This document shows, piece by piece, positions 1,667 through 18,708 of a DNA stretch of 64,000 bases (position 1 is the stretch's first letter; every line of letters starts with the position of its first letter). A model generated the notes under the pieces. The model had not been told where the DNA came from. It did not search any database and saw nothing but the letters and a program-made list of their open reading frames with translations. Source of the stretch: Glaciihabitans sp. dw_435 (GTDB lineage: Bacteria; Actinomycetota; Actinomycetes; Actinomycetales; Microbacteriaceae); assembly GCF_018449675.1 (NCBI RefSeq), contig NZ_JAAVUZ010000005.1, positions 62,001-126,000 on the forward strand, written 5' to 3'. The translations under genes were made by a program, and so were the position numbers.

Positions 1667-3058
1667 TTACGAGATCTTAGCCAGCGGCGCTCCCAGCGCG
1701 GGCTTGAGGATCTTGAACAGGACGAAGTACAGCACGGCCGAGATCACGAGTCCGACGACGGCGGTGAGGTCGCCGACCTCGGGCACTGCCTTCGGCACGA
1801 CGCCCACGTAGAACGTCTGGTTCGAGAACAGCCACACCGAGACAACGATGCCCACGAAGAGCGAGATTGCGCCGGCGGCGTTACGGTACTTGCGCTCCTC
1901 GGTCACAAGGGCGGAGATGTCGGTGCCGCGGCGCAGGTAGCGGTCGACGAAGACGACGCCGAGCCACGGGGTGATCCAGTACGCGATGACGAGCAGGAAG
2001 TTCTCGTACTTGTGCCCGGCGTCGGCCAGGGCGCTCCAGGCGAGGAAGAACCCGATGACGCCGAAGCCGACGGCGACGATCGCGCGGCGCAGGCGGAACG
2101 GGATCTTGATGCCGACGGCGAGGAACGACATCGAGCCCGAGTAGATGTTGAGCGCGTTGGCCGCGATCGCGCCGATGGCGATGGCCAGCAGCGTGATGTC
2201 GCGGATGAAGACCGGCATGCTCGCGGTAAACGAGTTCGTCGGGTCGCTCGCGTCGAAACCGGCGATCGTTGCGGCGGCGGCACCGGCGGCCATCAGGATC
2301 GTGCAGGAGACGAAGTTGCCGAGACCCGCGGCCAGACCGATGCTGCGTTTGCTCGTGGCCTTCGGCAGGTAGCGGGTGTAGTCGGACGCGTACGGGTTCC
2401 ATCCGGCGGCGTACCCGAACGCGGCACCCGCGGTGAGGGTGAACCCGGCGAAGCTGTACCCGCCACCGGCAACCGGGGCGGCGATGTTCGAGTGGATGAA
2501 CACCGTGATCGTCGCGATGAGGAAGATGACGCCGAGGATGTAGCTCGCGTAGCGCTCGAAGAGCTGCACGAAGTCGTGGCCGATGTAGGCGACGGCAACC
2601 TCGAGCACCACGATGATGAGCAGCGACGGCACCAGCGGGATGCCGGTCAGGGTCTCCAGCGCGAAGGCGCCGCTGACCGAGTTGACGGCGAACCAGCCGA
2701 TGCCCGCCATGACGGTGTTGAGGGCTGCCGGCAGGATGTTGCCGCGGTAGCCGAACGCGCTGCGCCCGATGACCATCTGCGCCAGTCCCTCGCGGGGACC
2801 CCAGGTGGACAGAATGCCCTGGGTCAGTCCGCCGAGCAGGTTGCCGAGGACCAGCGCGGCCATCGCCTGCCAGAAGCCGAGCCCGAAGAAGGCCACGGCG
2901 ATGACGCCGACGAAGATCGTGGCGAACTCGAGGTTCGGGGATGTCCACGTATTGAAAAGGGTCCACGGCTTGCCGTGGCGCCTGTCCGCGTGAATCGGTT
3001 CGATTCCTCCGGGCTCGACCTGGGTGGGCTGCACGAGCGGGGTGTCAATGATCGCCAT
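1667..3058 (-). CDS. NCS1-family cytosine/nucleobase permease
   Basis: A 463-residue polytopic membrane protein of the NCS1 (CodB/Fur/Mhp1) family, about 12 membrane segments. Family-typical stretches include FNTWTSPNLEFATIFVGV near the N-terminus, GWNPYASDYTRYLP in the middle and WITPWLGV late in the protein. It should import a nucleobase or related ring compound with a cation. The ATG at 3058 is chosen because the protein then begins with the usual hydrophilic leader (MAIIDTPLVQPT); no clear ribosome site is seen. It is followed without a gap by the cytosine deaminase, which makes cytosine the favoured substrate. Divergent from the dehydrogenase at 3199 across about 140 nt. Confidence 0.88.
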   Translation of the reverse strand: MAIIDTPLVQPTQVEPGGIEPIHADRRHGKPWTLFNTWTSPNLEFATIFVGVIAVAFFGLGFWQAMAALVLGNLLGGLTQGILSTWGPREGLAQMVIGRSAFGYRGNILPAALNTVMAGIGWFAVNSVSGAFALETLTGIPLVPSLLIIVVLEVAVAYIGHDFVQLFERYASYILGVIFLIATITVFIHSNIAAPVAGGGYSFAGFTLTAGAAFGYAAGWNPYASDYTRYLPKATSKRSIGLAAGLGNFVSCTILMAAGAAAATIAGFDASDPTNSFTASMPVFIRDITLLAIAIGAIAANALNIYSGSMSFLAVGIKIPFRLRRAIVAVGFGVIGFFLAWSALADAGHKYENFLLVIAYWITPWLGVVFVDRYLRRGTDISALVTEERKYRNAAGAISLFVGIVVSVWLFSNQTFYVGVVPKAVPEVGDLTAVVGLVISAVLYFVLFKILKPALGAPLAKIS

Positions 3059-3198
3059 CTGCACAGCGTAGAACTGTGGGACGGCTGCCCCAACAGCGCG
3101 GCACGCAGGAATGTGAGCTTTTACCCAGTGTTTACATGGGCACAGCGACATCCGCCCTACCCAGAAAAGTCCGGAATACCCGCCTGTACCCTGTACGG

Positions 3199-4288: not shown

Positions 4289-5311
4289 ATGGGTCCCAGT
4301 CACGCGACAAGCTACGACGTGGCTCGCGAAGCAGGGGTGTCCCAGTCGACGGTGTCCCGTGCTCTGCGCAACGATCCGCGAGTTTCCCTCGCAACCCGTG
4401 AGCGCATCCGTGAGATCGCGGACACCATTCACTATGTTCCCAACCTGGCCGCGCAGAGCCTCATCACCGGACACAGCAGGTCGATCGCCGTGTTCGTCGC
4501 CGACCTGCAAAACCCCGTCTATCCGCAGCTCGTCGACGCGGTGCAGAGCACGCTCAGCGAGCGGGGATACCGGATGCTCCTGCTGAGCGACAGCACGGAG
4601 GGCAGCCGCGAGGGCGACCTCGACGCACTGCGCGGAGGTCTCGTCGCCGGAACCCTGTTCATGCAGGCACGCGTCAACTCCACCCTCGCCGAGGATCTGC
4701 TGCAGCAGGGGCTTCCCCTCGTGGTGGTCAGCCGCGACGTGACGTCGTCGAAGGCCGAGGGGATCGACCGCTTCGTCGCCGACAGCTCCAACGGCGGCGT
4801 CATCATCGCCGACTACCTGCACGCCCTCGGCCACCGCAGGATCGCCGCCATCAGCGGTCCCGAATACATCCCCAGCATCCTGCGTCGCGACACCTCCTTT
4901 CGCACGCGTCTCGCGGAGCTGGGAAACCCGCTCGACGAGTCGCTCGTGCGCAGGGGCCCGATCGAGCACGCCACCGGCCTGACGTTCGGTACCGAACTGC
5001 TCTCCCTGCCCGATCGACCCACTGTCATCTACTGCGGAACCGACTACATCGCCTTCGGCGCGATCGACGCGGCAAACCGACTGGGGGTGCGCATCCCCGA
5101 GGACGTGCAGGTCATCGGCTACGACGACCTGGCGATGGCATCGTGGTCGATGTTCAACCTCACGACCGTGCGCCAGCCGCTGACCGAGATGGCGGTCGCG
5201 GGTACCCACCGGCTCATCGACCGCATCGAGGGCACCTACGTCGAGACGCCCGAGCGCGTCATGTTCCCGGTGAACCTCGTCGAGCGCGGAACGACGGCGC
5301 AGCTCTCCTAG
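4289..5311 (+). CDS. LacI family transcriptional regulator
   Basis: A 340-residue LacI/GalR repressor. The helix-turn-helix (DVAREAGVSQSTVSRAL) is at residues 10-26 and the hinge follows near 60. The remainder is a periplasmic-binding-protein-like sensor domain. A TAGGGT box at 4276-4281 lies 7 nt before the ATG, consistent with leaderless transcription; GTG at 4280 is an alternative start. It sits between the dehydrogenase and the ABC importer/Rut operon. Twin palindromes with a LacI-type central CG are found at 5577-5614, upstream of that operon, and are its most likely targets. The inducer is unknown, perhaps a nucleobase-derived metabolite. Confidence 0.9.
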   Translation: MGPSHATSYDVAREAGVSQSTVSRALRNDPRVSLATRERIREIADTIHYVPNLAAQSLITGHSRSIAVFVADLQNPVYPQLVDAVQSTLSERGYRMLLLSDSTEGSREGDLDALRGGLVAGTLFMQARVNSTLAEDLLQQGLPLVVVSRDVTSSKAEGIDRFVADSSNGGVIIADYLHALGHRRIAAISGPEYIPSILRRDTSFRTRLAELGNPLDESLVRRGPIEHATGLTFGTELLSLPDRPTVIYCGTDYIAFGAIDAANRLGVRIPEDVQVIGYDDLAMASWSMFNLTTVRQPLTEMAVAGTHRLIDRIEGTYVETPERVMFPVNLVERGTTAQLS

Positions 5312-5319
5312 CCAGCTTT

Positions 5320-5435
5320 TTCTCCCGCCGTGGGGTGGGCAGACGGGGCCGGCGGGAGAACCAAGCAATTGGAGGGAGCTATAGCTCCCGCCATCCGCCA
5401 GCTTCTCCCTCCGCAGCCTGGTTTTTCTCCCGCCG
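5320..5435. repeat. Palindromic repeat array, family A copy 2
   Basis: The second copy of the nested array seen at 76-191. TTCTCCCGCCG is at 5320-5330, GGCGGGAGAA at 5351-5360, the central 16-bp palindrome GGGAGCTATAGCTCCC at 5374-5389, the variant TTCTCCCTCCG at 5403-5413 and TTCTCCCGCCG again at 5425-5435. The order of arms differs slightly from copy 1 but the components are the same. It occupies the first part of the 477-nt non-coding gap after the LacI stop. The rest of that gap holds the twin operators and the leader of the ABC transporter operon. Confidence 0.85.
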
Positions 5436-5576
5436 CGGGGGAACGGGAGGGCGGATGTCCCGGTGCGGGGCGTCGATCGTGGAGCCGGCGGTGCCGCTGC
5501 GGCGCCTTAACGCGGACGAAACAATAACGACCCAAGACCGTTACAGGGGCGCCCGTTTTCCGCCTATTCACTGCTG

Positions 5577-5614
5577 TACATTCGAATGCATTCGGGAAGT
5601 GCATTCGAATGCAC
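5577..5614. promoter_or_regulatory. Twin LacI-type operators upstream of the ABC/Rut operon
   Basis: A perfect 16-bp palindrome, GTGCATTCGAATGCAC, spans 5599-5614. A second site with the perfect core CATTCGAATG lies at 5579-5588. Their centres are 23 bp apart, about two helical turns, so dimers would bind the same face. The central CG flanked by A/T and outer TG..CA fits the general LacI/GalR operator form. The LacI gene lies just upstream and the lipoprotein gene begins 175 nt downstream. No confident -35/-10 pair was identified between them. Assignment to this LacI protein is inference. Confidence 0.6.
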
Positions 5615-5788
5615 AACGACATTCCCGGCGGTTCTCGCCGGCTCTTCCGTCGTCTTTTTGCCGTGCCCTGGGTAAGACCCGCGGGTGGCCGCAGATTTTC
5701 CGAAACGCTCGTCACCACCGCTGATCTATCGCGCTACCTGCTTCATCCCCCGCCCTGCACACCACAGCACCGCAATGAGGAGAGACAC

Positions 5789-6952
5789 ATGCACCAGAGA
5801 TTCCGTCCGGTCCTGACAATGGCAGCGGTTGGCATCGCCAGCGCCCTGCTGCTGTCCGGCTGTTCCACCGAGACCACCGCGTCCGTGTCGTCGTCGACGA
5901 CCGATGAGGGCGTGGCATACGCCACCGCCCAGATCGAAAAGTTCAGCGTCGACCCGGCCTTCACGCTCGACGCTCCGGCGTTCCCGCTGAAAGACATCGC
6001 CGGTAAGACAATCTTCAACATCCCCAACACGAGCGGCATCCCGTTCATCGTGACCGTGGACGAAGAGGCCAAGAAGGTCGCGGAGACGTACGGCGCCAAG
6101 TGGGTGGAGTACACCAACCAGGGAAGCCCAACCGAGCACACCGCCGGCATCGACCAGGCGATCAGCCAGAAGGCCGACGTCATCATGCTGTCGCAGGGCA
6201 TCAACGGTGAGCTGCTGATCCCGGCGCTCCAGCGCGCGAAGGCCGCGGGAATCCCCGTGGTCATCACCCACACCTACGAGGACGGCGACCCCATCCCGGA
6301 CACGCTCAAGGACCTCGTCGCGGCGCAGATCACCGCACCGTTCAACGAGTCGGGTCGACTCAGCGCCGACTGGGCGATCAAGCAGACCAAGGGCAAGGGA
6401 AACATCCTCCTCATCAACACCGCCGAGGTCCCCGTCGCTCAGGGCATCATCGACGCGATGAAGGACGAGATCGCCACGCACTGCCCCGACTGCACGGTCA
6501 AGGACGTCAACGTTCCGATCGCCGACTGGGCAACCAAGATCTCCACGACAGTCCAGTCCGAGATCCAGATCAACCCCGAGCTTGACTACGTGCTCCCGGT
6601 GTTCGACTCGATGTCCCTCTTCGTTGAGGCCGGCGTCACGGCTGCCGGAAAGGTCGGATCCGTCTTCACCGCGTCGTTCAACGGAACTCCCGCCGTGCTG
6701 AAGATCATGCAGGACGGCGAAGTGCTCACGATGGACGCGGGTGAGTCGATGACGTGGCTCGCCTGGGCCTCCATCGACCAGGTCGGCCGCGTGCTGACCG
6801 GATCGCCCATCATCGAGGACGGAGCAGCCCACACGCCGCTCAAGGTCATCACGAAGGACAACGTCGACGAGACCGGCACCCCGCCCGAAGCGGGCAAGGG
6901 TTACGGCGACGCGTTCGAGACCGGCTACAAGGCACTGTGGGGCCAGCCGTAG
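5789..6952 (+). CDS. Ribose-type ABC transporter substrate-binding lipoprotein
   Basis: A 387-residue extracytoplasmic binding protein with a lipoprotein signal: a hydrophobic segment ending in LLSGC, lipidated Cys25. The remainder fits the periplasmic binding fold used by sugar/RbsB-type systems, two alternating alpha/beta lobes with repeated DQAISQKADVIML-like helices. The ATG at 5789 follows the ribosome site GAGGAGAG; an in-frame upstream start would precede the signal peptide unnaturally. The stop overlaps the ATPase start by one base. The ligand is unknown. Its place in front of rutA suggests a pyrimidine, nucleoside or ring-derived compound rather than a sugar, but this is inference. 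Confidence 0.88.
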   Translation: MHQRFRPVLTMAAVGIASALLLSGCSTETTASVSSSTTDEGVAYATAQIEKFSVDPAFTLDAPAFPLKDIAGKTIFNIPNTSGIPFIVTVDEEAKKVAETYGAKWVEYTNQGSPTEHTAGIDQAISQKADVIMLSQGINGELLIPALQRAKAAGIPVVITHTYEDGDPIPDTLKDLVAAQITAPFNESGRLSADWAIKQTKGKGNILLINTAEVPVAQGIIDAMKDEIATHCPDCTVKDVNVPIADWATKISTTVQSEIQINPELDYVLPVFDSMSLFVEAGVTAAGKVGSVFTASFNGTPAVLKIMQDGEVLTMDAGESMTWLAWASIDQVGRVLTGSPIIEDGAAHTPLKVITKDNVDETGTPPEAGKGYGDAFETGYKALWGQP

Positions 6953-8547
6953 TGAATTCCCTCCTGTCGAGCGGCACTGAGGACATCGTGGATGCCACGT
7001 CCACGCCCCTGCTGCGCATTGAAAATCTGACGAAGACCTTCGGTGGCCTCGCAGCGCTCTCCAGTGTCGATCTCGACATTCTCCCCGGGCAGATCCATGG
7101 TCTGCTCGGGGAGAACGGGTCGGGAAAATCGACCCTCATCAAAGTTCTCGCCGGCTTCTACACCCCGGACCCCGGCGCCCGCGCCTGGCTGCGCGGGGAG
7201 GTGCTGGAGCTGCCCATCGCTCCCGGCTACTTCCGCCAGCTCGGCATCAGCTTTGTGCACCAGGACCTCGGCCTCGTTCCCGAGCTGAGCGTGGTGGAGA
7301 ACCTCCGCCTCAGCACGATCGTCGCCGGGCATCGTCCGCTCATCAACTGGGCGAAGGAACGGGCGCTCGCGGCCGAGACGTTCGCCCGCTTCGGGCTCGA
7401 CATCGACCCGCGCGAAACCGTCGACCGGCTCAACAACACGCAGCGCGCGCTCATCGCGATCTTGCGGGCTGTCAACGACCTCGGCGACACGCGCGGACTG
7501 CTCGTGCTCGACGAACCGACGGTGTTCCTGCCAAAGGAAGACACCGAGCTGCTCTTCCGTGTCGTCAAGGAACTGGTGAGCGACGGCGGCATGAGTGCGC
7601 TCCTCGTCTCCCACGACATGACCGAGGTGCTCGAGCACACCGACCGCGTGACGGTCTTGCGCGCCGGGGAGGTGCAGGCGAGCCTCGCCACCGAGGACGT
7701 GACCGCCGACCAGCTCGTGCAGTTGATCGTCGGACGCAAGCTGCGACCGAGCAAGACCGCCGCGACCGCCGCCGCCCGTGGTGCCATCGCGGCCAGCGTC
7801 GACGGACTCTCGACCGGGCAGGTCGAGAACTTCAGCTTCGACGTGTCACAGGGCGAGATCGTCGGTATCACCGGCCTCGCAGGCTCCGGATTCGAGGACG
7901 TGCTCGCCGGCATCTACGGCGCGACCCCGGTGCGGGCAGGTAGCCTGGCGCTGGACGGCACGGCCCGCGCGATCGCCGATGCAACACCCCGCACGTCCAT
8001 CGCCTCCGGCATCGTCTACGTGCCCGCCGACCGCAAGGCACAGGGCGGCGTCGCCGAACTCACGGTCGAACAGAACGTCACCCTCCCGGTGCTCACGCAG
8101 TTCCGCTCCTGGTTCGGCCTCTCACCCGCCGGTCTGCACGCCCGCGGCACCGAGATCGCCGAGACCTACGACATCCGCCCCCGCAACACCGATGCGCTCT
8201 TCGGGACGCTGAGCGGCGGCAACCAGCAGAAGGCAGTCTTGGGCAAGTGGTTGCAGGATGACCCGAAACTGATCCTTCTGCAGGAACCCACACAGGGCGT
8301 GGACATCGGCGCCCGCAGCAACATCTTCGACATGCTCCGGTCGACTGCGGCCGGCGGAGTCCCCATCGTGTGCGCGTCGTCGGACTACGACCAGCTGGCC
8401 GCCGTGTGCGACCGCGTGATCGTGCTTGCCCACGGTCAGATCCACGCGGAACTCACCGGGGACGACCTCACCCACGAACTCATCGCCGCATCCGTCATCC
8501 GGAGCCTCACCGAGGTTCCCGCCGAAACCAAGGAGACGCTCTCATGA
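6952..8547 (+). CDS. Ribose-type ABC transporter ATP-binding protein (tandem domains)
   Basis: A 531-residue protein with two ABC domains, as in RbsA/MglA-type importers. Domain 1 has Walker A GENGSGKST at 53-61 and Walker B LLVLDEPT, but a poor signature motif (LNNTQRALIAI). Domain 2 has a degenerate Walker A (GLAGSGFED), a canonical signature LSGGNQQK and Walker B LILLQEPTQG. This division is normal for the family. The GTG start at 6952 overlaps the upstream stop by one base and the permease overlaps its end by four, so the three genes are translationally coupled. Confidence 0.92.
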   Translation: MNSLLSSGTEDIVDATSTPLLRIENLTKTFGGLAALSSVDLDILPGQIHGLLGENGSGKSTLIKVLAGFYTPDPGARAWLRGEVLELPIAPGYFRQLGISFVHQDLGLVPELSVVENLRLSTIVAGHRPLINWAKERALAAETFARFGLDIDPRETVDRLNNTQRALIAILRAVNDLGDTRGLLVLDEPTVFLPKEDTELLFRVVKELVSDGGMSALLVSHDMTEVLEHTDRVTVLRAGEVQASLATEDVTADQLVQLIVGRKLRPSKTAATAAARGAIAASVDGLSTGQVENFSFDVSQGEIVGITGLAGSGFEDVLAGIYGATPVRAGSLALDGTARAIADATPRTSIASGIVYVPADRKAQGGVAELTVEQNVTLPVLTQFRSWFGLSPAGLHARGTEIAETYDIRPRNTDALFGTLSGGNQQKAVLGKWLQDDPKLILLQEPTQGVDIGARSNIFDMLRSTAAGGVPIVCASSDYDQLAAVCDRVIVLAHGQIHAELTGDDLTHELIAASVIRSLTEVPAETKETLS

Positions 8548-9560
8548 CCAGCGCAACCGACACGGTCGCTCCCGCGGCCCGGCCCGTGCGGCCCGCCCGC
8601 AACCTTTGGCTGCACACCGAACGCTTCGCCCTGCTGTTCGCGTGGCTGATCGTCATCATCGGTTTCAGCATCGCCCTTCCCCACACCTTCTTCACCGTCG
8701 GCAACCTGCAGAACGTGCTGGGTTCGCAGGCCGTGCTGCTGGTGCTCGCGCTTGGCCTGCTCTTTCCGCTGACGGCGGGCGAGTTTGACCTGTCCGCCGC
8801 ATCGACCCTGTCCGTGTCATCCATGACCGTGGCCGTTCTCAACGCGAAGATGGGCGTGCCCATCATTCCGAGCATCATTGCGGCGCTCGTCGTGGGAATC
8901 CTCATCGGACTGATCAACGGCATCTTCGTCGTGGTCTTCAAGATTGACTCGTTCATCGTGACGCTCGGATCGGCGACGGTGCTGCTCGGCATCGTGCAGT
9001 GGATGAGCAACTCCTCCTCGGTCACCGGGGTCGACAGCGCGCTGGTGCAGGCCACCGTCGGGTACCGCGGCATTCTGGGCATGCCCATGCAGTTCTTCTA
9101 CGGGCTGATCGCCACGGCCGTCATCCTCGTGGTGCTGACCCTCACGCCCATCGGCCGCCGCCTGCTCTTCGTCGGGCGCGGGCGCCAGGTTGCCGAGCTC
9201 AGCGGCCTGAACGTCGGTCGCCTGCGCATCGGCGCGTTCACCGCGTCGGGTCTCATCGCCAGCGTCGCCGGAATCATCTACGCGGGAAGCCTGGGAGGTG
9301 CCGACCCGTCGTCCGGGCAGTCGTTCCTGCTGCCGGCCTTTGCCGCCTGCTACCTCGGGGCCACGGCCATTGTGCCCGGTCGCTTCAATGCGATTGGCAC
9401 CTTCATCGCGGTGTTCTTCCTGTTCTCCGGCGTCGTCGGGCTGCAGATGCTCGGCGCCCAGAACTACGTGCAGCAGCTGTTCTACGGCGGCGCCCTGATC
9501 GTCGCCGTGGCGCTGTCGCAGGCGATCCGCCGGCAGTCCGCCCGCTCCAAGATCAGCTGA
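8544..9560 (+). CDS. Ribose-type ABC transporter permease
   Basis: A 338-residue inner membrane permease of the RbsC/BPD_transp_2 family, about 8-10 hydrophobic helices. The family-typical [12 protein letters not shown] loop (compare GGIDLSVGS in sugar permeases) follows the second to third helix, and [22 protein letters not shown] is the cytoplasmic coupling region. The ATG lies in an ATGA overlap with the ATPase stop. RutA begins 83 nt downstream with no terminator between them, so transport and catabolism genes probably share a transcript. Only one permease gene is present, which would act as a homodimer. Confidence 0.9.
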
Positions 9561-9643
9561 CCGTCTCACCTCACCTCGCCTCACCTCCCGCACCCCTCAT
9601 AACTCGCACGATCCCCACCACAACCCTCGACAAGGAGAACCCC

Positions 9644-10729
9644 ATGGACATCGGTGTATTCATTCCGATCGGAAACAACGGCTGGCTCATTTCGAAGACC
9701 TCGCCCCAGTACAAGCCGTCCTATGACCTCAACCTCGAGGTCGTGCAGAAGGCGGAGTCCTACGGCTTCGAGTTCGCGCTGTCGATGATCAAGCTGCGCG
9801 GATTCGGTGGGGAGTCCGAATTCTGGGATTACAACCTCGAGTCGTTCACGCTGATGGCGGGTTTGGCCGCGGCCACCTCGAAGATCAAGCTCTACGCGTC
9901 CGCCGCGGTGCTTACCATGCCGCCGGCCTTCGCTGCCCGCATGGCAACGACCGTGGACTCCATCTCCCACGGCCGCTTCGGCGTCAACCTCGTCTCCGGC
10001 TGGGCCAAGGATGAGTACGCCCAGATGGACATCTGGCCCGGGGACATCCACTTCTCCCGCCGCTACCGGTACTCGGAAGAGTACGTGCGCGTCATGCAGG
10101 AGCTGTGGACCTCGGGCCAGTCCGACTTCAAGGGTGAGTTCTTCACCATGAACGACTGCCGCCTGCTGCCGATGCCGTCGACGCACATCCCGATCGTGAC
10201 CGCCGGGCAGAGCCACACCGGCATCGAGTTTGCGGCAAAGTTCGCCGACTACAACTTCGTGCTGGGATCGGGTGTCAACACACCCACCGCGCACGCGGAC
10301 GGCGTCTACGAACTGGTCGAGGCCGCGAAGGCGACCGGCCGCGACGTCGGCAGCTACGTGCTGTTCATGGTGATCGCGGACGAGACCGACGAGATCGCCC
10401 AGGCGAAGTGGAAGGACTACAACGACGGCATCGACATGGATGCCATCGCGTGGATGGGCTTCCAGGCGTCGAGCGACACCGGCGACGAGAAGTCGACCGC
10501 CAAGTCGATCGTTGCCCCCGAGGGTGCCGTCAACATGAACATGGGAACCATCGTCGGCTCCTACGAGACCTGCGCGCGCCTGCTCGATGAGGCGGCCGGT
10601 GTCGAGGGCACCAAGGGAATCATGCTCGTGTTCGATGACTTCATCATCGGCATGGACGACTTCGGAACGCGTATCCAGCCGCTCATGAAGTCGCGCGAGG
10701 GCGTGGTCACGGACCTGGCAGCAGTATGA
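9644..10729 (+). CDS. rutA: Pyrimidine monooxygenase RutA
   Basis: A 361-residue flavin-dependent luciferase-like monooxygenase. Many blocks match E. coli RutA as I remember it: [13 protein letters not shown] (residues 5-17), [26 protein letters not shown] followed by [30 protein letters not shown] and FDDF. RutA uses reduced FMN and oxygen to open the uracil ring between N3 and C4, giving a ureidoacrylate peracid/ureidoacrylate. The ATG at 9644 has CAAGGAG upstream. The next gene overlaps its stop (ATGA). Reduced flavin would come from the two flavin enzymes at 15686-16814. Thymine or a modified uracil could also be the substrate. Confidence 0.93.
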
Positions 10730-11625
10730 CCCGCGTTCCCCGCGAGCTGACGGTGGCAGTGGTGCAGTCGGGCAGCACATCGCCCGACCGTGCCACGGCG
10801 ATCGCCGACCTTCTCGACCTGTTCGAGACGGCGGCAACACCGGGCGTCGACGTGGTGGTGTTTCCCGAACTGTGCACGACCCCGTACTTCGGCTCGACCA
10901 ACGATGACCGGTACAAGGCGTGGGCGCAGACGATTCCCGGCCCCGACACGGACGCGTTCGCCGCGACCGCCAAGCGGCTGGGCGTCGGCGTCATCTTCGG
11001 GATGTTCGAGCTCGGCGAGGACGGCGTCGGATACAACTCCGCCGTAGTGATCGACGGAACAGGCACCATCGTGTCCGGCACCACGCTCGCGGGGGACCGC
11101 GTCTCCAGCTACCGCAAGATGTCGATCCCGAAGGGGCAGGTCGGCGTCACCGCCGTCAACGAGAAGTACTTCTTCACGCCGGGTGGCGGAACCGTCATCT
11201 TCGAGGCGTTCGGCGCGAGATTCGCCTGCCTCATCTGCTACGACAGGACCTTCCCCGAGTACTGGCTCGCGGCACGTGCCGCCGGTGCCGAGGTCGTCGT
11301 CGCCCTCGTGAGTTCCATGGGCAGCCGCGAAGCGCTCTTCGTGCAGGAGCTGCAGGTGCGTGCCATGGAAACCCAGGTCTACGTCATCGCTCCTAACCGG
11401 GGCGGTGCGGAAACCCTCGGAGAGACCACCACCGACTACTTCGGGCTCTCCTGCATCGCGACCCCCGAGGGAGAGATCGTGGCGCTCGCCGCGGCACACA
11501 CCAATCCCGAGATCCTCAGCGCGACCCTCGACCTGAACCGGGTCGCCGACGTGCGCGAGTACTTCGACATCGCCCGTGACCGCCGGGGTGACGTGTTCCA
11601 GTATCTGGCGACGGCCACCGCGTGA
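10726..11625 (+). CDS. Nitrilase-superfamily carbon-nitrogen hydrolase
   Basis: A 299-residue carbon-nitrogen hydrolase. The Glu-Lys-Cys triad is visible as Glu48 (FPEL), Lys131 (YRKM) and Cys171 ([10 protein letters not shown]). The overall motif pattern is closest to beta-ureidopropionase and N-carbamoylputrescine amidases, which remove a carbamoyl group as CO2 and ammonia. Coupled by ATGA to rutA upstream and GTGA to the amidase downstream. In this setting it may hydrolyse the ureido group released by RutA, a step done by isochorismatase-fold RutB in E. coli. That assignment is inference; the exact substrate is unknown. Confidence 0.85.
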
Positions 11626-13247
11626 GCGCGGCTGACGAGCAGGTGCGGCAGACCATCACCCCGCAGCTCGACCTTGCCCTCGCGGCCAGCCGCCGGCGGC
11701 CGCTACCGGCATCCCCGTCGTCGGCCGCCGACGAACCCGCCGACGCGGACCTGCTGTTTCGTGCGCTCCTCGCCGACGCCCCGGCCGCCGCTCACGACAG
11801 CGCCCCGGCGGCAACCACCACGTCAATCGCCAACCCCGCGATCGCGTCGGTCACTGAGCTTCTCGCCGCCTTCGCCGCGGGGCTGCTCACGCCCTCGGCG
11901 CTGATCGCGACCCTGCGTCCCCGCTGGTCTGCCGCTGGACCCGCGCCCGCCGCCGTGCTCGCGTCCATCCCCGGGATCGATGCCGCGGCAGCCGAGAGCG
12001 ACCGACGCTGGGCCGCCGGCACGCCCCGCCCGCTCGAGGGCGTTCCGTTTGCCGTTAAGGACATCATCGATGTCGGCGGGGCGATGGTCACCTCCGGTTC
12101 CTGGCAGACCGGTGACCGCATTGCGCCGGTGGATGCCACGGTCGTCGACAGATTGCGTCAGGCGGGGGCCATCCCGGTGTTCATGTCCGCGACCACCGAA
12201 TTCGCCTGCGGCGCCCCGGTCAACGGGCGCTACGGCGCTGTGCCGAACCCCTGGAACGAAGAGATGTGGACGGGTGGGTCATCCACCGGATCCGCCTCGG
12301 CTCTCGCCGCCGGTCTCGTGCCCTTCGCCCTCGGCAGCGACACCGGTGGCTCGATCCGTGTGCCCTCGGCCCTCTGCGGATTGACCGGCATCAAACCCAC
12401 CTACGGTCTCGTTCCGCGCACCGGCGTCTCGTCCCTCTCGTGGACCATGGACCACATCGGTCCCATGGCCCGCTCCGCCGCCGACCTCGCGCTGCTGCTG
12501 CCGGTCATGGCCGGCCCCGACGGGGTCGACGCCACCGCGGGCGCCACCGTGCCCGATCTCGCGCCCGACCCCGCGTCCGTGGCGGGACTGCGCATCGGCG
12601 TGCCGCGCGGCTGGTTCACCGAGCGCTGTGACGCCGAGGTGCTCGCCGCCCTCGAGTCCGCGATCGCCAGCTTCACCGCCCTCGGCGCCCAGATCGTGCC
12701 CATCGAGTTCGACGACCTCGACGCGATTCACGACGAATCCTGGAACGTCTTTTACGGCGAGCTCGCCTCCAACCAGGAGGCCAACGCCGATCGCCGCGAC
12801 CTCTTCGACGACGGTACAAACGCGCGGCTCGACTGCGGCTTCGTTCCGCTCGCCGTCGACTACCTGCGCGCCCTTCGCCGCCGACCGGTGGTGCAACGGG
12901 ACATGCTGGAGCGAATGGATGCCTCGGGCGTCGACCTCCTCCTGACCCCGGCCGTGGGCGCCACCGCCCCGAGCCTCGCCACCCTCACCATGGACGTGGA
13001 CGGCGTCAGCTACAACCTGCACGACGTCATTCCCCGCAACATGCGGATCTTCGACTACACCGGATTTCCCGCACTCGTGGCTCCCGCAGGACTCTCGTCG
13101 GACGGCATGCCCATCGGCATCCAGCTCGTCGCGCGCCCCTGGCAGGACCGCCTGTGCCTCGCGGCCGCGATGGCCTTCCAGTCCGCGACCGACCACCACC
13201 ACGCGCTCCCGCCCGTGACCTCGGCATGGAGTGACTCAGATCGTTAG
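11622..13247 (+). CDS. Amidase-signature family amidase
   Basis: A 541-residue amidase-signature enzyme. The Ser-cisSer-Lys triad can be placed at Lys146 (FAVKD), cis-Ser220 (TGGSSTGS) and nucleophile Ser244 (DTGGSIR), with spacing as expected for the family. The first 70 or so residues are low-complexity Ala/Pro/Asp and vary in such proteins. It hydrolyses an amide to acid plus ammonia in the cytoplasm. The GTG start overlaps the nitrilase stop. It is the second of three unrelated amide-hydrolase types in this operon. Canonical rut operons have no such gene, so this points to a modified pathway or a broader substrate. Confidence 0.88.
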   Translation: MSAADEQVRQTITPQLDLALAASRRRPLPASPSSAADEPADADLLFRALLADAPAAAHDSAPAATTTSIANPAIASVTELLAAFAAGLLTPSALIATLRPRWSAAGPAPAAVLASIPGIDAAAAESDRRWAAGTPRPLEGVPFAVKDIIDVGGAMVTSGSWQTGDRIAPVDATVVDRLRQAGAIPVFMSATTEFACGAPVNGRYGAVPNPWNEEMWTGGSSTGSASALAAGLVPFALGSDTGGSIRVPSALCGLTGIKPTYGLVPRTGVSSLSWTMDHIGPMARSAADLALLLPVMAGPDGVDATAGATVPDLAPDPASVAGLRIGVPRGWFTERCDAEVLAALESAIASFTALGAQIVPIEFDDLDAIHDESWNVFYGELASNQEANADRRDLFDDGTNARLDCGFVPLAVDYLRALRRRPVVQRDMLERMDASGVDLLLTPAVGATAPSLATLTMDVDGVSYNLHDVIPRNMRIFDYTGFPALVAPAGLSSDGMPIGIQLVARPWQDRLCLAAAMAFQSATDHHHALPPVTSAWSDSDR

Positions 13248-14721
13248 CGTTATGGAAAATTCACAGCAGTCCGCGCGAGTGGCGTGGAACATTCTCTTTG
13301 CCACGAGCCTCAGCGTCGTGCTCGTTTTCATCAACTCGAGCGGTCTGGCCATCGCGCTCCCGAACCTCTCCCGGGACCTCGACTCGACCGCGAGTCAGAC
13401 CACGTGGGTGCTGCTCAGCTACATGCTCTCCACCACCACCCTGATCCTCGTCTTCGGTCGCGTCACCGATATCGTCGGGCGCCGCCGGTTGTACATCCTC
13501 GGCATCGTGCTCTTTATGCTGGCGACCCTCGCCTGTGGTCTGGCGACGGATGCCACGTTCCTCATCGTCATGCGGTTCGTGCAGGGCATCGGCGCCGCCG
13601 CGATCATCACGAACACCACGGCCCTGCTCACCGACGTCTTTCCCAAGCACATCCTCAGCAGCGCCCTTGGTATCAACGCCTCGATCGCCGCCGTCGGGCA
13701 GGTGCTGGGCCCGCTGCTGGGAGGCGTCGTCACCGAGCTGTTCGGCTGGCGGTGGATCTTTCTCGCCGGAATCCCGATCAGCCTGCTCGGCCTCATCTGG
13801 TCGCTGAAGCTCATCCCGCACCAGGGTCCCCAGGTGCGCGGTGAGCGCATGGACTACCCGGGGAGCGTGCTGTCCGTCCTCAGCATCGCGCTCCTGGTGA
13901 TGGGGGTGTCGTGGGGCGGAAGCCTCGGCTGGGGAAGCCCGCTCGTCGTGGGAACGCTGGTCGCTGCGGTGGTGGCGCTCACCGCGTTCATCGTGCTGCA
14001 GCGGCACAAGACGCATCCGCTCATCGACATCGCCCTGTTCAAGGACCGCGTCGTCTCCTCCCTCTACATCGCGGCGTTCTTCAACTCGATCAGCAACTAC
14101 GCGATCGTGCTGCTCGCGTCGCTCTACCTGCAGGGGGTGCAGGGGCTCAGCGCCATCGACGCCGGCCTGATGATTTTGCCCTCGCCGATTGGCACGATGG
14201 TGGCGGCCGCGATCGCCGGGCGCCTGGCGCGCACCGTCAACCCGCGCTGGCTTACCGCGAGCGGCATGGTGCTGATCAGCGCCGGAGCCCTGCTGTTCGC
14301 CGCGAATCTTGGCGTACACACGCCCTATATCTTCCTAGCGATCGCGCTGTTCCTCGTCGGCATCGGGGTGGGGGTCTTCATGACGCCCAACACGACGGCG
14401 CTCATGGGGCGGGTCCCGTCCACCCGGCGGGGCATCGCCAACGCGATCCGCTCGACGCTGCAGAACGCCGGCTACCTGTTCAGCACGGCCCTCGCGCTGG
14501 CCATCGCCACCGGCGGGCTGACCGCGACGCAGCAGCTCGCCGCCTACAAGGGCACCCTGTTCGGCATGAAGCCACAGGACCTCGCCGCGTTCGTGGGCGG
14601 CGTCCACTCCGCGCTCGTGCTGTTCGGGGTGCTCGCCCTCGTCGGCGCCATCGTTAGCATTGTCGGCACCCGTCCGAGCTCGCCGGGCCGTGCCGACTCG
14701 GTCGTGATGACCGACCTGTGA
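13231..14721 (+). CDS. MFS transporter, DHA2 (EmrB/QacA) type
   Basis: A 496-residue polytopic protein of the 14-segment DHA2 drug:H+ antiporter group. Motif A appears as GRVTDIVGRRRLY after the second helix, motif C-like GINASIAAVGQVLGPLLGG later. From GTG 13231 it overlaps the amidase by 17 nt. ATG 13252 (MENSQQSARVAW) is an equally plausible start with no clear ribosome site. Located inside the operon, it might export a toxic intermediate or end product, or import a pathway substrate. E. coli rut encodes a different carrier (RutG, NCS2). Confidence 0.88.
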   Translation: MTQIVSVMENSQQSARVAWNILFATSLSVVLVFINSSGLAIALPNLSRDLDSTASQTTWVLLSYMLSTTTLILVFGRVTDIVGRRRLYILGIVLFMLATLACGLATDATFLIVMRFVQGIGAAAIITNTTALLTDVFPKHILSSALGINASIAAVGQVLGPLLGGVVTELFGWRWIFLAGIPISLLGLIWSLKLIPHQGPQVRGERMDYPGSVLSVLSIALLVMGVSWGGSLGWGSPLVVGTLVAAVVALTAFIVLQRHKTHPLIDIALFKDRVVSSLYIAAFFNSISNYAIVLLASLYLQGVQGLSAIDAGLMILPSPIGTMVAAAIAGRLARTVNPRWLTASGMVLISAGALLFAANLGVHTPYIFLAIALFLVGIGVGVFMTPNTTALMGRVPSTRRGIANAIRSTLQNAGYLFSTALALAIATGGLTATQQLAAYKGTLFGMKPQDLAAFVGGVHSALVLFGVLALVGAIVSIVGTRPSSPGRADSVVMTDL

Positions 14722-14768
14722 CAGTCACCTCCGCCCCGTGACATCCGCCCCTCCCCAAAGGACCTGAC

Positions 14769-15455
14769 ATGACGACCACCGACGGAACCCCCGCCACCAG
14801 CGCCGATACGACCGACACGGGTGCCGCCGATGCCGACTACGCCGCGGCCGGGTACACCGGTGCGCTCGAACCCGGGGCCCGCCCGGCACTCATCATCGTC
14901 GACCCCGTGCGTGCCTACATCGACAAGGACTGCGGCCTGTACGCCGGGGTTGAGGAACCCGTCGAGCAGATGAAGGTCGTTGCCGACGCGGCGCGCGCGG
15001 CCGGCATCCCCGTCTTCATCACGTCGGTGACGTACGAAGCGGATGGCTCGGACGGCGGCGTCTTCTTCCGCAAGGTGGCAGCCCTGAAGGCGTACCTGCC
15101 GGGCAGCCCGTTCGGCGCGTTCATCGATGGGCTCGAGCCGCAGCCGGGCGACACCCACCTCACCAAGCAGTACCCGAGCGCCTTCTTCGGCACGTCGCTG
15201 GCGGCCAACCTCGTCTCCCGCGGCATCGATACCCTGGTGATCACCGGACTCAGCACCAGCGGCTGCGTGCGGGCCACGACGCTCGACGCGATGCAGAGCG
15301 GGTTCATCCCGATCGTGGTTTCCGACGCCGTGGGCGACCGGCTCGAATCGGTGCACAACGCCAACCTCTTCGACATCGGCATGAAGATGGGCGAGGTGTG
15401 GTCGTCGCAGCGGGTCTTCGACTACTGGAACGGCCTTGCGAAATCCCCAGAGTGA
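14769..15455 (+). CDS. Isochorismatase-fold cysteine hydrolase (RutB/N-carbamoylsarcosine-amidase-like)
   Basis: A 228-residue cysteine hydrolase. The Asp-Lys-Cys triad is Asp45 (IIVDPV), Lys133 (LTKQYPSAF) and Cys166 (STSGCVRAT). The sequence TGLSTSGCVRAT and the closing YWNGL resemble N-carbamoylsarcosine and maleamate amidohydrolases more than E. coli RutB, which has an ATNVCVEST active site. The ATG has AAAGGA upstream; a Thr/Ala/Asp-rich tail of about 30 residues precedes the fold. In position it is the analogue of RutB, releasing carbamate from ureidoacrylate, but the substrate could be a different carbamoyl or amide compound. Confidence 0.85.
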   Translation: MTTTDGTPATSADTTDTGAADADYAAAGYTGALEPGARPALIIVDPVRAYIDKDCGLYAGVEEPVEQMKVVADAARAAGIPVFITSVTYEADGSDGGVFFRKVAALKAYLPGSPFGAFIDGLEPQPGDTHLTKQYPSAFFGTSLAANLVSRGIDTLVITGLSTSGCVRATTLDAMQSGFIPIVVSDAVGDRLESVHNANLFDIGMKMGEVWSSQRVFDYWNGLAKSPE

Positions 15456-15685
15456 TTAAACACACTCGTAATAAACGGGACTCCCACACGCAATGCATCG
15501 GGCGCATACTTTTATCAGCAACGTAAGCCGTTGCTCACCCATCTGAGACACAAAACCTCGGTGGCTAACTCATCGATTCTGGTGACGCGGCTTCGTTATG
15601 TCTGCACCGAACCTGGTGTCTCTCGTGTGGAACGCAGTGCCAGATCGTTTTGACCTAGCCGATTGGCTTTAAAGTTGGGAAAACG
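15456..15685 (+). other. Non-coding leader between hydrolase and flavin-enzyme genes
   Basis: A 230-nt gap that is distinctly less GC-rich than its surroundings and has no good reading frame. A hairpin with arms AGCAAC/GTTGCT lies at 15518-15536, preceded by TTTTAT. TTGACC at 15650-15655 is followed after 14 nt by TAAAGT, too short a spacer for a confident promoter. The downstream ATG has GGGA 5-8 nt before it. The region could contain a separate promoter or an RNA control element for the flavin reductase pair; nothing recognisable was identified. Confidence 0.4.
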
Positions 15686-16255
15686 ATGCTGAAAGTAACA
15701 ATTCTCGTGGGGAATCCAAAACCCCAGTCGCGCACGCTGAAGATCGCCGAAACCCTCGTCGACAAGCTGCTTGAGCCGGGTACCTACGCCACGCAGGTCA
15801 TCGACCTTGCGGAGCACTCCAGCCACATCTTCGAGTGGCCGTCTCCCGAGATGGCAGAGCTCAACCAGACCGTTGCCGACAGTGACCTGGTCGTTGTCGC
15901 GTCCCCCACCTACAAGGCGACCTACACCGGTCTGCTTAAGGGTTTCCTCGACCGTTACCCGGCCAACGGCCTGCGCGGCGTCACCGCGATCCCGCTGATG
16001 ACCGGTGCCGACCTCGGGCACTCGATGGCTCCCGACGTCAACCTTCGCCCGCTCCTCGTCGAGCTCGGCGCGAGCGTTCCCAGCAAGGGCCTCTTCTTCG
16101 TCACCGGTCAGATGGACCGCATGGAAGAAATCGTCGGCGAATGGGCCGCCGAGAACGTTGCGGTGCTGCGGATGACCCAGCCGCTGACCGAGGGCATGTT
16201 TGCGCGTCATCCCGAATCCGACAGTGTCGACAGCTCGACGAAGGTCGGTGCCTGA
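15686..16255 (+). CDS. NADPH-dependent FMN reductase
   Basis: A 189-residue flavodoxin-fold reductase of the SsuE/MsuE group. The phosphate-binding loop GNPKPQSRT is at residues 9-17, and SPTYKATYTGLLKGFLDR in the middle is the family signature for FMN and dimer contact. It would supply reduced FMN to a two-component monooxygenase, here most likely RutA. It is followed after one base by the RutF-like gene. Such reductases usually accompany sulfonate or sulfone monooxygenases. Its pairing with both RutA and RutF gives the cluster two candidate flavin donors. Confidence 0.88.
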   Translation: MLKVTILVGNPKPQSRTLKIAETLVDKLLEPGTYATQVIDLAEHSSHIFEWPSPEMAELNQTVADSDLVVVASPTYKATYTGLLKGFLDRYPANGLRGVTAIPLMTGADLGHSMAPDVNLRPLLVELGASVPSKGLFFVTGQMDRMEEIVGEWAAENVAVLRMTQPLTEGMFARHPESDSVDSSTKVGA

Positions 16256-16256
16256 G

Positions 16257-16814
16257 ATGACCCTCATCGACATCAACACCGGACTCGCTTCCGCCGCTGC
16301 CGCCGGCATCACCCGACCCCTGGATCCGATCGCCTCCGACCCGGCCGAAATTCGTGCCGCGTTCGGTCGCTTCCCGTCGGGTATCGCGGCCTTGTGTGCG
16401 GACATTGACGGCGTCCCGACCGGCCTCGTCGCGACATCCTTCTCCGTCGGCGTCTCCTACGACCCGCCGCTGGTGCTCTTCTCCGTGCAGAACAGCTCGA
16501 CCACGTGGCCCGTTCTGCGTGAGGCCGGACGCATCGGCGTCTCGATCCTCGGCAGCGAGCACGCGGCGATCGCCATGCAGCTCGCCTCCCGCAAGGGTGA
16601 CCGGTTCGCGGGCATCGAGACCATGGGATCCGACGACGGCGCGATCTTCATCCACGGCTCGCCGCTGTGGATGGAGTGCGAGATCGTCTCGGAGACCCCC
16701 GCGGGCGACCACAAGATCGTGCTGCTCGAGGTCAAGGCGCTTCGCGTCGAAGACCAGACCGAGCCGCTGATCTACCACTCGGCAGCCTTCCGCAACCTGG
16801 CTGCCGCGAGCTAA
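16257..16814 (+). CDS. rutF: Flavin reductase, RutF-like
   Basis: A 185-residue flavin reductase-like (FMN-binding split barrel) protein. FGRFPSGIAAL near residue 36 and TSFSVGVSYDPPLVLFSVQNSSTTWPVL are the typical HpaC/RutF blocks: acceptance of FMN or FAD and NAD(P)H. It should regenerate reduced flavin for RutA. The ATG lies two bases after the preceding stop. A strong terminator at 16835-16883 follows, marking the end of the pathway genes. The name rests on the association with rutA; other two-component monooxygenases use close relatives. Confidence 0.85.
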   Translation: MTLIDINTGLASAAAAGITRPLDPIASDPAEIRAAFGRFPSGIAALCADIDGVPTGLVATSFSVGVSYDPPLVLFSVQNSSTTWPVLREAGRIGVSILGSEHAAIAMQLASRKGDRFAGIETMGSDDGAIFIHGSPLWMECEIVSETPAGDHKIVLLEVKALRVEDQTEPLIYHSAAFRNLAAAS

Positions 16815-16834
16815 CCCTCACCCCAGTCAGCCGA

Positions 16835-16883
16835 ACGCCCCGCCCGCACGGAGATCCGAAATATCTCCGGGCAGGCGGGGCGT
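16835..16883. terminator. Intrinsic terminator after rutF
   Basis: A ten-pair outer stem (ACGCCCCGCC 16835-16844 with GGCGGGGCGT 16874-16883) continues into a second paired segment CGGAGAT/ATCTCCG around loop 16856-16862, followed by a short T run. It sits between the rightward rutF stop and the leftward lyase stop at 16905 and may serve both strands. Confidence 0.8.
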
Positions 16884-16904
16884 TTCGCTGCGGTCTGCGG
16901 GCGG

Positions 16905-17975
16905 TTACGCCGGGTTCGCCAGCTCGGCGGAGATCGCCGCGACGAACCCGTCGATGTCGGACTCGGTGGTGTCGAACGCGGTCATCCAGCGCACCTCGCC
17001 CGCGGCCCGGTCCCAGTCGTAGAAGCGGAACTGTTGCTTCAGCCGGTCCGCCGACTCGTTCGCCAGCGCCGCGAACACCGCGTTGGCCTGCGTCGGTCGC
17101 GTGAAGCTCAGCCCGTGGATGCGCCCGGCCGCGATGGCCTCCTCGAGCGATCCCCGCAGGCGTGCCGCCATTGCGTTCGAGTGTGCCGCCGACCGCAGGT
17201 ACAGGTCATCCTCGAGCAGCGCGAGCAGCTGCGCGCTGACGAACCGCATCTTGGAGGCGAGCTGCATGTTCAGCTTGCGCAAGAAGATCAGACCATCGGA
17301 TGCCTCGGGGTTGAGCACCACGACGGCCTCGCCATACAACAGGCCGTTCTTGGTTCCGCCGAAGCTCAGTACGTCCACGCCGGCGTCCGAGGTGAAGTCG
17401 CGCAGCGGTACGCCCAGGGCCGCCGCGGCGTTGGAGATCCGGGCACCGTCCATGTGGAGGGTCATCCCGAGCTTGTGAACGTGGTCGGCAATCGCGCGCA
17501 CCTCGTCGACCGTGTACAGCGTGCCGAGTTCCGTGGTCTGGGTGATGCTGACCGCGAGCGGCTGCGCGCGGTGCTCGTCGCCCCAGCCCCACGCCTCGAC
17601 GTCGATGAGCTCGGGGGTGAGCTTGCCGTCGGGGGTGTCGACCGTGAGCAGCTTGAGTCCGCTGATGCGCTCGGGTGCGCCGTTCTCGTCCGTGTGGATG
17701 TGCGCGGTGCTCGTGGCGACGACAGCTCCCCAGCGCGGGAGCATGCTGGTCAGCGCCGTGACGTTCGCGCCGGTGCCGTTGAACACCGGGAAGACCTCGG
17801 TGCGGTCACCGAACAGCCCGCGCATGACCTCGCCGAGCCTGGCGGTGTAGACGTCCTCGCCGTAGGCGATCTGGTGGCCGCCGTTGGCCTCGGCAATGGC
17901 CGCGATCACTTCTGGATGCGCGCCGGCGTAGTTGTCGCTGGCGAATCCGCGGTACTGGTCGTCATGAAGTTTCAC
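16905..17975 (-). CDS. Threonine-aldolase-like PLP-dependent beta-eliminating lyase
   Basis: A 356-residue fold-type I PLP enzyme of the low-specificity threonine aldolase group (Beta_elim_lyase). The PLP-binding Lys lies in FGGTKNGLLYGEAVV, and the substrate/PLP regions SDNYAGAHPEV, TGANV and HMDGARISNA match the family. It would cleave threonine-type beta-hydroxy amino acids to glycine and an aldehyde. GTG 17975 (MKLHDDQYRGF) is chosen; longer frames to 18188 are arginine/proline-rich and unlike the family. It is the last gene of a leftward DUF6421-SDR-lyase trio. Confidence 0.87.
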   Translation of the reverse strand: MKLHDDQYRGFASDNYAGAHPEVIAAIAEANGGHQIAYGEDVYTARLGEVMRGLFGDRTEVFPVFNGTGANVTALTSMLPRWGAVVATSTAHIHTDENGAPERISGLKLLTVDTPDGKLTPELIDVEAWGWGDEHRAQPLAVSITQTTELGTLYTVDEVRAIADHVHKLGMTLHMDGARISNAAAALGVPLRDFTSDAGVDVLSFGGTKNGLLYGEAVVVLNPEASDGLIFLRKLNMQLASKMRFVSAQLLALLEDDLYLRSAAHSNAMAARLRGSLEEAIAAGRIHGLSFTRPTQANAVFAALANESADRLKQQFRFYDWDRAAGEVRWMTAFDTTESDIDGFVAAISAELANPA

Positions 17976-18060
17976 GGGAGGCGTCTTTCGTTCGGAGGTT
18001 CGGCGGTGCGTGGGCGCACAGCCCTGCTGCGGTGAGGCGCTGCGGTGCGGATGACCCGCG

Positions 18061-18708
18061 CTACAGCGACCGGGTGGTGAGGCGGATCCTGGCGCCGTTG
18101 AGCTCGACCACCGGGGCATCCCAGAGACCGGCGACGCGGGTCGCGAGGGTGTCGACGGAGGTGTCGTTCTCGCCGGTGCCGAGGGCACGCACCACGAAGG
18201 TGACGGCGGCTGCCGTTCCGGCCTTCGCCCATCCGGATGCCACGGAGCCGACCCACGCCTCTGCGGCGGCCTTCGCGGTGGCGTAGTTGGCGCTGCTCCA
18301 GGTGGGGGAGTCGACGCTCGTGGAGCTCACGACGGCCAGGCGACCGGCGGGAGAGGCGACGAGATCGTCACGGAAGGCGAGGGTGGTGTTGCGCAGGGTG
18401 GTGATGAGGCGTTCCTCGAGCCAGGCCCAGGTTGCGTCGTCATTTCCGGGCTTCCAGCCACCGACGAGGTGCACGAGTCCATCGATCGGGCCGACCTCGG
18501 TGCGCACCGTTTCGGCAAGGGCGAGGACCGCGGCGGGGTCGGAGAGGTCGCACACGTAGGAGGCGTCGGCCGGGACATCCGCCAGCCTGCCCGCATCGGA
18601 TCCGACGGCGATGACCCGCACTCCCGTTGCCTGCAGGGCGGCGGCACACGCGTGCCCCGCCGCGCTCGACGCGCCGGCAATGAGGACGGTACGGGACGGC
18701 TCAGTCAT
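18061..18708 (-). CDS. SDR family oxidoreductase
   Basis: A 215-residue short-chain dehydrogenase-like protein. The dinucleotide motif is GASSAAG (residues 12-18), a departure from the usual GxxxGxG. VSSTSVDSPTW and Tyr142-x3-Lys146 (NYATAK) retain the catalytic arrangement. It is shorter than typical SDRs because the C-terminal substrate loop is reduced. It lies between DUF6421 (57 nt upstream) and the lyase (86 nt downstream), all leftward. The substrate is unknown. Confidence 0.82.
   Translation of the reverse strand: MTEPSRTVLIAGASSAAGHACAAALQATGVRVIAVGSDAGRLADVPADASYVCDLSDPAAVLALAETVRTEVGPIDGLVHLVGGWKPGNDDATWAWLEERLITTLRNTTLAFRDDLVASPAGRLAVVSSTSVDSPTWSSANYATAKAAAEAWVGSVASGWAKAGTAAAVTFVVRALGTGENDTSVDTLATRVAGLWDAPVVELNGARIRLTTRSL

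Follow-up and report, generated by a model that had tools for sequence, protein, structure and literature searches.

Which compound is degraded by an operon that holds the monooxygenase RutA and lacks the RutB, RutC, RutD and RutG that accompany it in Escherichia coli? This question is raised by a stretch of 64,000 nucleotides from Glaciihabitans sp. dw_435 (NZ_JAAVUZ010000005.1, positions 62,001 to 126,000), here called the window, which lies within contig C44 of the 3.7-Mb, 99.99% complete genome of a soil-type actinobacterium. Between positions 5789 and 16814 of its forward strand, a packed run of genes encodes a CUT2 importer, a variant RutA, a nitrilase, an amidase, an MFS protein of the DHA2 family, an isochorismatase-fold hydrolase and two flavin reductases. 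The explanation favoured here, which is considered moderately probable, is that these genes form a nitrogen-scavenging catabolic operon for a small cyclic imide or ureide, a ring amide resembling uracil, and that uracil is not its main substrate. The enzyme families are already known. In the open-access literature searched, nothing was found on a RutA operon like this one, nor on the combination of these families, how it is conserved and how it stands apart from the Rut pathway.

Gene content of the operon

The original prediction, made from the sequence of the window, described a coupled series of genes, and all of them are found where it placed them, together with the nine catalytic residues quoted for the nitrilase, the amidase and the isochorismatase. 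The ATPase gene of the importer starts with a GTG within a TAGTG overlap with the gene of the substrate-binding protein, and the ATG of the permease gene (8544) is inside the 3' end of the ATPase gene. Permease and RutA genes are 83 bp apart, and overlaps of 4 bp (RutA/nitrilase), 4 bp (nitrilase/amidase) and 17 bp (amidase/MFS) follow. Further downstream the gaps are 47 bp (MFS-isochorismatase), 230 bp (isochorismatase-FMN reductase) and 1 bp (FMN reductase-flavin reductase).

Profile scores agree with the predicted absence of RutC, RutD and RutE from the operon, and the NCS2 carrier RutG is indeed replaced, the CUT2 ABC importer and the DHA2 MFS protein standing in its stead. The last gene had been named RutF, an assignment that is rejected: its product scores 49.6 bits on the curated model, below the cut-off of 254.75 bits, and is a better match to HsaB/HpaC-type reductases. 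A reductase of this kind may serve in the role of RutF. The identification of the isochorismatase as RutB was also rejected (61.4 bits versus a cut-off of 377.95). Comparison of the substrate-binding protein with solved structures gave distant ribose-type matches only, with no hint about the ligand.

The variant RutA

The window RutA is around 62% identical to E. coli RutA over a full-length alignment, and reaches 566.6 bits in the NCBIfam RutA equivalog TIGR03612 (cut-off, 498.3 bits). This model does not part canonical from non-canonical RutA; RutAs of operons other than rut score far above its cut-off. A maximum-likelihood tree does separate them: the RutAs from rutBCD operons form one clade (100/99) that excludes the window type, whose members constitute a clade of their own (98/98).

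The residues that hold oxygen beside flavin N5 are L65, T/S105, N134, V136, W139 and F224 (PMC10005588, PMC7662398). They are kept in all RutA groups, V136 conservatively, and at position 105 the window RutA has Ser, like most non-canonical RutAs. On the other hand, positions 108, 137, 205, 225, 226, 228, 304 and 305, next to the N5-peroxide residues, are unlike those of canonical RutA, and the stretches 204-228 and 300-314 also diverge between canonical and other RutAs. Since the N5-peroxide residues are kept and adjacent positions differ, the variant RutA would have a changed substrate pocket but unchanged oxygen chemistry.

The partner hydrolases

The isochorismatases of non-canonical operons group with the maleamate amidohydrolase NicF (3ot4) and with N-carbamoylsarcosine amidohydrolases (CSHases; 26st, 1nba), and a branch of 2.4 changes per site sets RutB apart from them. 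Most of these partner enzymes have the motif VGDR...PHExNLFD, which RutB does not have. The window enzyme shows the Asp-Lys-Cys triad, STSGC (group motif, (T/S)TSGC) and VGDR...HNANLFD, is inside the NicF/CSHase clade and has an N-carbamoylsarcosine amidohydrolase as its nearest solved relative. By motifs and clade it belongs to the NicF/CSHase group and is a candidate for the hydrolysis of maleamate or N-carbamoylsarcosine. In 1nba, the arginine of the VGDR...NLFD motif presumably binds the carboxylate of the substrate. If this role holds, the carboxylate would be three bonds away from the scissile carbonyl, which would fit an opened five-membered imide or ureide; uracil would give four.

The other two hydrolases score below curated cut-offs. 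The amidase scores 266.9 bits on the AtzE model (cut-off, 461 bits), with biuret hydrolase among its closest solved relatives, and the nitrilase scores 128.2 bits on the N-carbamoylputrescine amidase model (cut-off, 410.25 bits).

Conservation in relatives

A RutA-centred scan gave 80 named loci, and gene neighbourhoods were counted around RutA in 97 loci, 8 of them canonical and 89 non-canonical. The counted loci are those that best match the window RutA; many come from Rhizobiales, a few contigs are short or duplicated and the gene calls are rough, so the counts are not natural frequencies. Relatives of RutB or RutC are near RutA in all 8 canonical loci and in none of the 89 non-canonical ones. 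In the latter, the neighbours of RutA include a CUT2 permease (50 loci), its substrate-binding protein (49), the window amidase (36), an isochorismatase of the window kind (35) and the nitrilase (16).

More than one strain has this arrangement. The same order, importer-RutA-nitrilase-amidase-MFS-isochorismatase, is found in Rathayibacter (L021), in two Microbacteriaceae (L024, L027) and in genome G105 (L101), with identities to the window proteins of 57-60% (nitrilase), 67-69% (amidase) and 66-67% (isochorismatase). Zafaria (L023) has a rearranged version of the operon, Cryobacterium arcticum (L020) has it without the nitrilase at that place, and in L020 and L101 the FMN reductase pair is separate from the rest. 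Related RutA-amidase-importer operons are also present in Rhizobiales, Rhodobacterales and Nanopelagicales. In a large-genome actinobacterium (L140, 8968-10670, forward strand) RutA is followed by an isochorismatase 60% identical to that of the window, a pair that is possibly the minimal core of the system. Few genomes have a RutA that passes the curated cut-off: 3 of 300 in the family and 9 of 395 in the class, the source genome counted in.

Some loci contain several RutA paralogues: two or three divergent copies per 20 kb are found in L022, L057 and L058, in some cases with asparaginase-like and polyamine-type ABC genes.

Promoter elements and predicted control

The published GlnR box has an a-b-a-b pattern (PMC10704036), and an element with this pattern, its 5-mers spaced by 6, is located ahead of the operon (Table 1). 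It is conserved in L020, L024 and L027 and partly in L021 and L101, and it has a mean of 0.005 occurrences in shuffled windows. The amtB gene of the source genome has GTAAC-n6-GAAAC-n6-ACCTA-n6-GAAAC upstream. Exact TTAAC-n6-GAAAC half-boxes occur at six sites of that genome; at the other five, the whole-genome search found no clear four-part box ahead of a nitrogen gene.

Downstream of the GlnR-type box there are two LacI-type operator palindromes built around TGCATTCGAATGCA, for which a search of the whole genome, allowing 0-1 mismatch, gave no further site. The Cryobacterium locus L020 keeps both the operator pair and the LacI gene (76%), and in the window this regulator gene belongs to the operon unit. 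The combination of a GlnR-type box with LacI-type operators suggests that the operon is likely under nitrogen control plus a specific inducer, both sites being predicted.

Table 1. Genes and predicted control sites of the RutA operon (positions in the window)
Feature	Position	Strand	Basis
Transcription regulator of the LacI family, likely acting locally on the operon	4289..5311	+	Open reading frame; orthologue in the matching position of Cryobacterium L020 (76% identity)
GlnR-type box TTAAC-n6-GAAAC-n6-GACCC-n6-GTTAC	5507..5544	+	Kept in promoters of relatives; rare in shuffled windows
Pair of palindromic LacI-type operators, TACATTCGAATGCA (5577-5590) and TGCATTCGAATGCA (5600-5613)	5577..5613		Conserved pair in L020
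CUT2-type lipoprotein substrate-binding protein	5789..6952	+	PF13407; synteny
Double ATP-binding protein of the CUT2 importer	6952..8547	+	PF00005 (two); RbsA/AraG-like; junction
CUT2 permease	8544..9560	+	PF02653; junction
Variant RutA, FMN-dependent group C monooxygenase	9644..10729	+	TIGR03612 above cut-off; N5-peroxide residues; tree
Nitrilase-superfamily amidohydrolase	10726..11625	+	PF00795; E48/K131/C171; nearest solved relative, N-carbamoyl-D-amino acid amidohydrolase
Amidase-signature hydrolase, AtzE/biuret-hydrolase-like	11622..13247	+	PF01425; K146/S220/S244; below AtzE cut-off
DHA2/EmrB-family MFS exporter	13231..14721	+	TIGR00711, 245 bits (cut-off, 230.2)
Isochorismatase-fold amidohydrolase, NicF/CSHase group	14769..15455	+	PF00857; D45/K133/C166; tree
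NAD(P)H-dependent FMN reductase (flavodoxin fold)	15686..16255	+	PF03358; orthologues in L020 (80%) and L101 (49%)
Flavin reductase, HpaC/HsaB-like	16257..16814	+	PF01613; orthologues in L020 (67%) and L101 (53%)

Proposed degradation of a cyclic imide or ureide

From these data we infer the following scheme. A small cyclic imide or cyclic ureide would be taken up by the CUT2 importer, and the two flavin reductases would feed FMNH2 to the variant RutA. This enzyme would then form the flavin-N5-peroxide and cleave the N-C(=O) bond of the ring. The product would be a linear acid ending in a carboxamide or ureido group, from which the NicF/CSHase-type isochorismatase would free the nitrogen. Remaining or side-chain amide and ureido groups would be cleaved by the nitrilase and the amidase-signature enzyme, and the MFS pump may expel a by-product or the excess of substrate. 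GlnR and the linked LacI protein would turn the operon on under nitrogen limitation when the inducer is present.

Is uracil the substrate?

Alternatively, the operon could degrade uracil or thymine with unrelated enzymes in place of RutB to RutE, a reading that is considered rather unlikely. In this case RutA would produce ureidoacrylate, the isochorismatase or the nitrilase would decarbamoylate it, aminoacrylate would decay spontaneously and a RutE homologue encoded in the genome would reduce the aldehyde. Some observations weigh against the cyclic imide or ureide. TIGR03612 scores the non-canonical proteins as RutA, and the approximately unbiased (AU) test does not reject a tree in which the window type and canonical RutA are sisters (p-AU 0.29), the deep branch order being unsettled. 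Besides, the window RutA is over the curated cut-off with its catalytic residues kept, a RutE homologue over its cut-off (in a model of a broad nitroreductase family) is encoded outside the operon at C1:371546, 5 of the 89 non-canonical loci contain a RutE-like reductase, and a cytosine-deaminase-like gene with an NCS1 permease is near the operon, although such genes are absent beside the operons of relatives.

On the other side, canonical rut genes coexist with operons of this type. RutB over the cut-off is present in 17 of 36 genomes with a non-canonical RutA operon, and in the eight of these that were inspected RutA, RutB and RutC are together. The coexisting canonical RutAs are 68-74% identical to E. 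coli RutA and 58-60% to the window RutA. RutB is absent from all five window-type relatives that were tested. A canonical rut operon was looked for elsewhere in the source genome and none was found, the best profile scores being 76.6 bits for RutB (cut-off, 377.95), 59.8 for RutC (169.1) and 45.9 for RutD (238.5). The same genome has, in an operon separate from the window (C48; L174, 8322-16811), a dihydropyrimidinase scoring 536.6 bits (cut-off, 393.25), together with a nitrilase-type amidohydrolase, an F420-type LLM oxidoreductase (TIGR03842), an ABC transporter and an aminotransferase; this predicted content is as expected for the reductive pyrimidine route.

Uracil is unlikely to be the main substrate because 17 of the 36 genomes carry a true RutB and the source genome has its own dihydropyrimidinase operon. 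The original prediction had proposed both a variant Rut operon for uracil and a distinct route for a modified pyrimidine or cyclic ureide. The former is not upheld, given a RutA outside the canonical clade, an isochorismatase of the NicF/CSHase type that is not in the RutB clade, the coexistence of canonical rut with such operons and a separate dihydropyrimidinase operon; the latter stands as a class of substrate.

Other genes of note were observed in the same genome. The deaminase gene mentioned above, of the yeast-FCY1-like cytosine-deaminase type, is coupled to the NCS1 nucleobase permease (1205-3151, reverse strand) around 2.6 kb upstream of the operon. Feeding of the operon by conversion of cytosine to uracil was rejected, as the pair is beside the operon in no relative. 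A second cluster (L108, C9:15000-34900; 5600-11000) encodes two RutA-like LLM monooxygenases (36-40% to RutA) and a THI5-type ABC importer, along with a cupin, an amidohydrolase and proteins of the Rid family whose scores are RutC-like. In a further locus (L109, C2:1-17000; 4939-8101) a RutA-like LLM protein (39%) is followed by the isochorismatase with the best RutB score of the genome (76.6 bits) and by an NtaA-type LLM protein.

Possible imide or ureide substrates

Within the cyclic imide/ureide class, a substituted maleimide such as methyl ethyl maleimide or hematinic acid is a tentative candidate. RutA would open the imide to a maleamate and a NicF-type enzyme would convert it into a maleate, and the dicarboxylate would be split, depending on the lineage, by a LeuCD-type hydratase plus a lyase of the PEP-mutase/ICL superfamily (PEPM), or by a CoA-transferase plus an HMG-CoA-lyase-like enzyme. 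In an Acetobacteraceae locus (L059), RutA is between a gene of the maleate-isomerase/arylmalonate-decarboxylase (AMDase) family and a NicF orthologue (62% to 3ot4). The isomerase-family gene also adjoins RutA in L094 and L120, and is found with PEPM and an isochorismatase in L065. Beside RutA in L032 (Rhodobacterales; 13239-18414, reverse strand) there is a contiguous operon of isomerase-family gene, PEPM, LeuC, LeuD, NicF-group isochorismatase and SDR. PEPM, whose nearest solved relative is the petal death protein, is near RutA in 14 of the 89 non-canonical loci. Nanopelagicales loci contain a type III CoA-transferase and an HMG-CoA-lyase family protein, together with an alpha/beta hydrolase that is uninformative on the substrate. 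C-C lyases for hydroxy-dicarboxylates suit a C4 dicarboxylate skeleton, for instance an alkylated maleate, more than uracil, because the uracil route ends in a three-carbon product. Among the listed oxidation products of chlorophyll and heme are methyl maleimide, methyl ethyl maleimide and hematinic acid, and senescent leaves and lake sediments are reported to contain maleimides and hematinic acid (PMC7318184).

Nevertheless, all of these downstream genes are missing from the window-type operon, hydrolysis could open a simple imide with no need for O2, and AMDase, EutA and maleate isomerase are indistinguishable here by sequence. Moreover, LeuCD is present in one locus only, where it scores as ordinary LeuC/LeuD, and ureide-type hydrolases occur in the same operons. 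It is also possible, though doubtful, that natural maleimides derived from tetrapyrrole breakdown are opened and stripped of nitrogen by a widespread oxidative pathway, made up of a flavin-N5-peroxide enzyme of the RutA type and a hydrolase of the NicF type, which would end differently by lineage, in hydratase/lyase or CoA-transferase/lyase steps.

A five-membered cyclic ureide, hydantoin or an N-substituted hydantoin, is another member of the class, unlikely as the specific substrate. RutA would open the ring, and the CSHase-type isochorismatase or the nitrilase would remove the N-carbamoyl group. The ureide is favoured by the closest solved relatives of the three hydrolases (N-carbamoylsarcosine amidohydrolase, N-carbamoyl-D-amino acid amidohydrolase and biuret hydrolase) and by HyuA-like genes within 9 kb in 9 loci, a hydantoinase-like gene in L054 and an Asp/Glu/hydantoin-racemase family gene in L110. 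However, hydantoin is normally opened by hydrolysis, and these neighbours are in distant alphaproteobacterial loci, several of them possibly by chance. Because imide and ureide clues pull apart across loci, we commit to the class alone, a cyclic imide or ureide and not mainly uracil, with no single compound chosen. Substrates may differ between lineages.

Finally, that the genes are independent and neighbours by chance alone is very improbable, and was rejected: the gaps of 47 and 230 bp and the detached FMN reductase pair of L020 and L101 would fit it, but overlapping junctions, an order conserved in relatives and a shared promoter element mean that the arrangement is not due to chance.

Implications

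TIGR03612 labels all such proteins "pyrimidine utilization protein A", and genomes are over-annotated as uracil degraders, since RutB, RutC and RutD are missing from these operons and many of the genomes carry a true rut operon too. The operon offers a new substrate for flavin-N5-peroxide chemistry, which can be assayed, and this substrate is a probable nitrogen source for leaf, soil and freshwater bacteria. If it were a maleimide, the system would be a sink, in bacteria, for the final fragments in which chlorophyll and heme can still be recognised.

Comparison with known systems

The amidase of the window is nearest to AtzE and biuret hydrolase of the cyanuric acid and biuret pathways (AtzE, BiuH), but it is below the AtzE cut-off and no cyanuric acid hydrolase is among the operon genes. 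With the creatinine/N-methylhydantoin route, the system shares a hydrolase of the CSHase group and, in some distant loci, HyuA-like genes; that route uses an ATP-dependent hydantoinase, whereas an oxygenase would act here instead of it or beside it. The lower pathway of nicotinate (NicF maleamate amidohydrolase, NicE maleate isomerase) has in common a NicF-group amidohydrolase, found here near RutA, and in L059 both a NicF orthologue and the maleate-isomerase/AMDase family gene. Its ring is opened by NicX/NicD, a step that RutA would take over here, and the window isochorismatase is only a cousin of NicF.

The Rut pathway of E. coli (RutABCDEFG) shares with the window a flavin-N5-peroxide monooxygenase of the RutA family, a flavin reductase, an isochorismatase-fold hydrolase and a probable role in nitrogen scavenging. 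The window operon differs in having no RutB, RutC, RutD or RutG, an isochorismatase of another clade and a RutA outside the canonical clade, and it adds a nitrilase, an amidase-signature hydrolase, a CUT2 importer and an MFS exporter. Control also differs: the E. coli pathway uses RutR, whereas the window has sites of the GlnR and LacI types.

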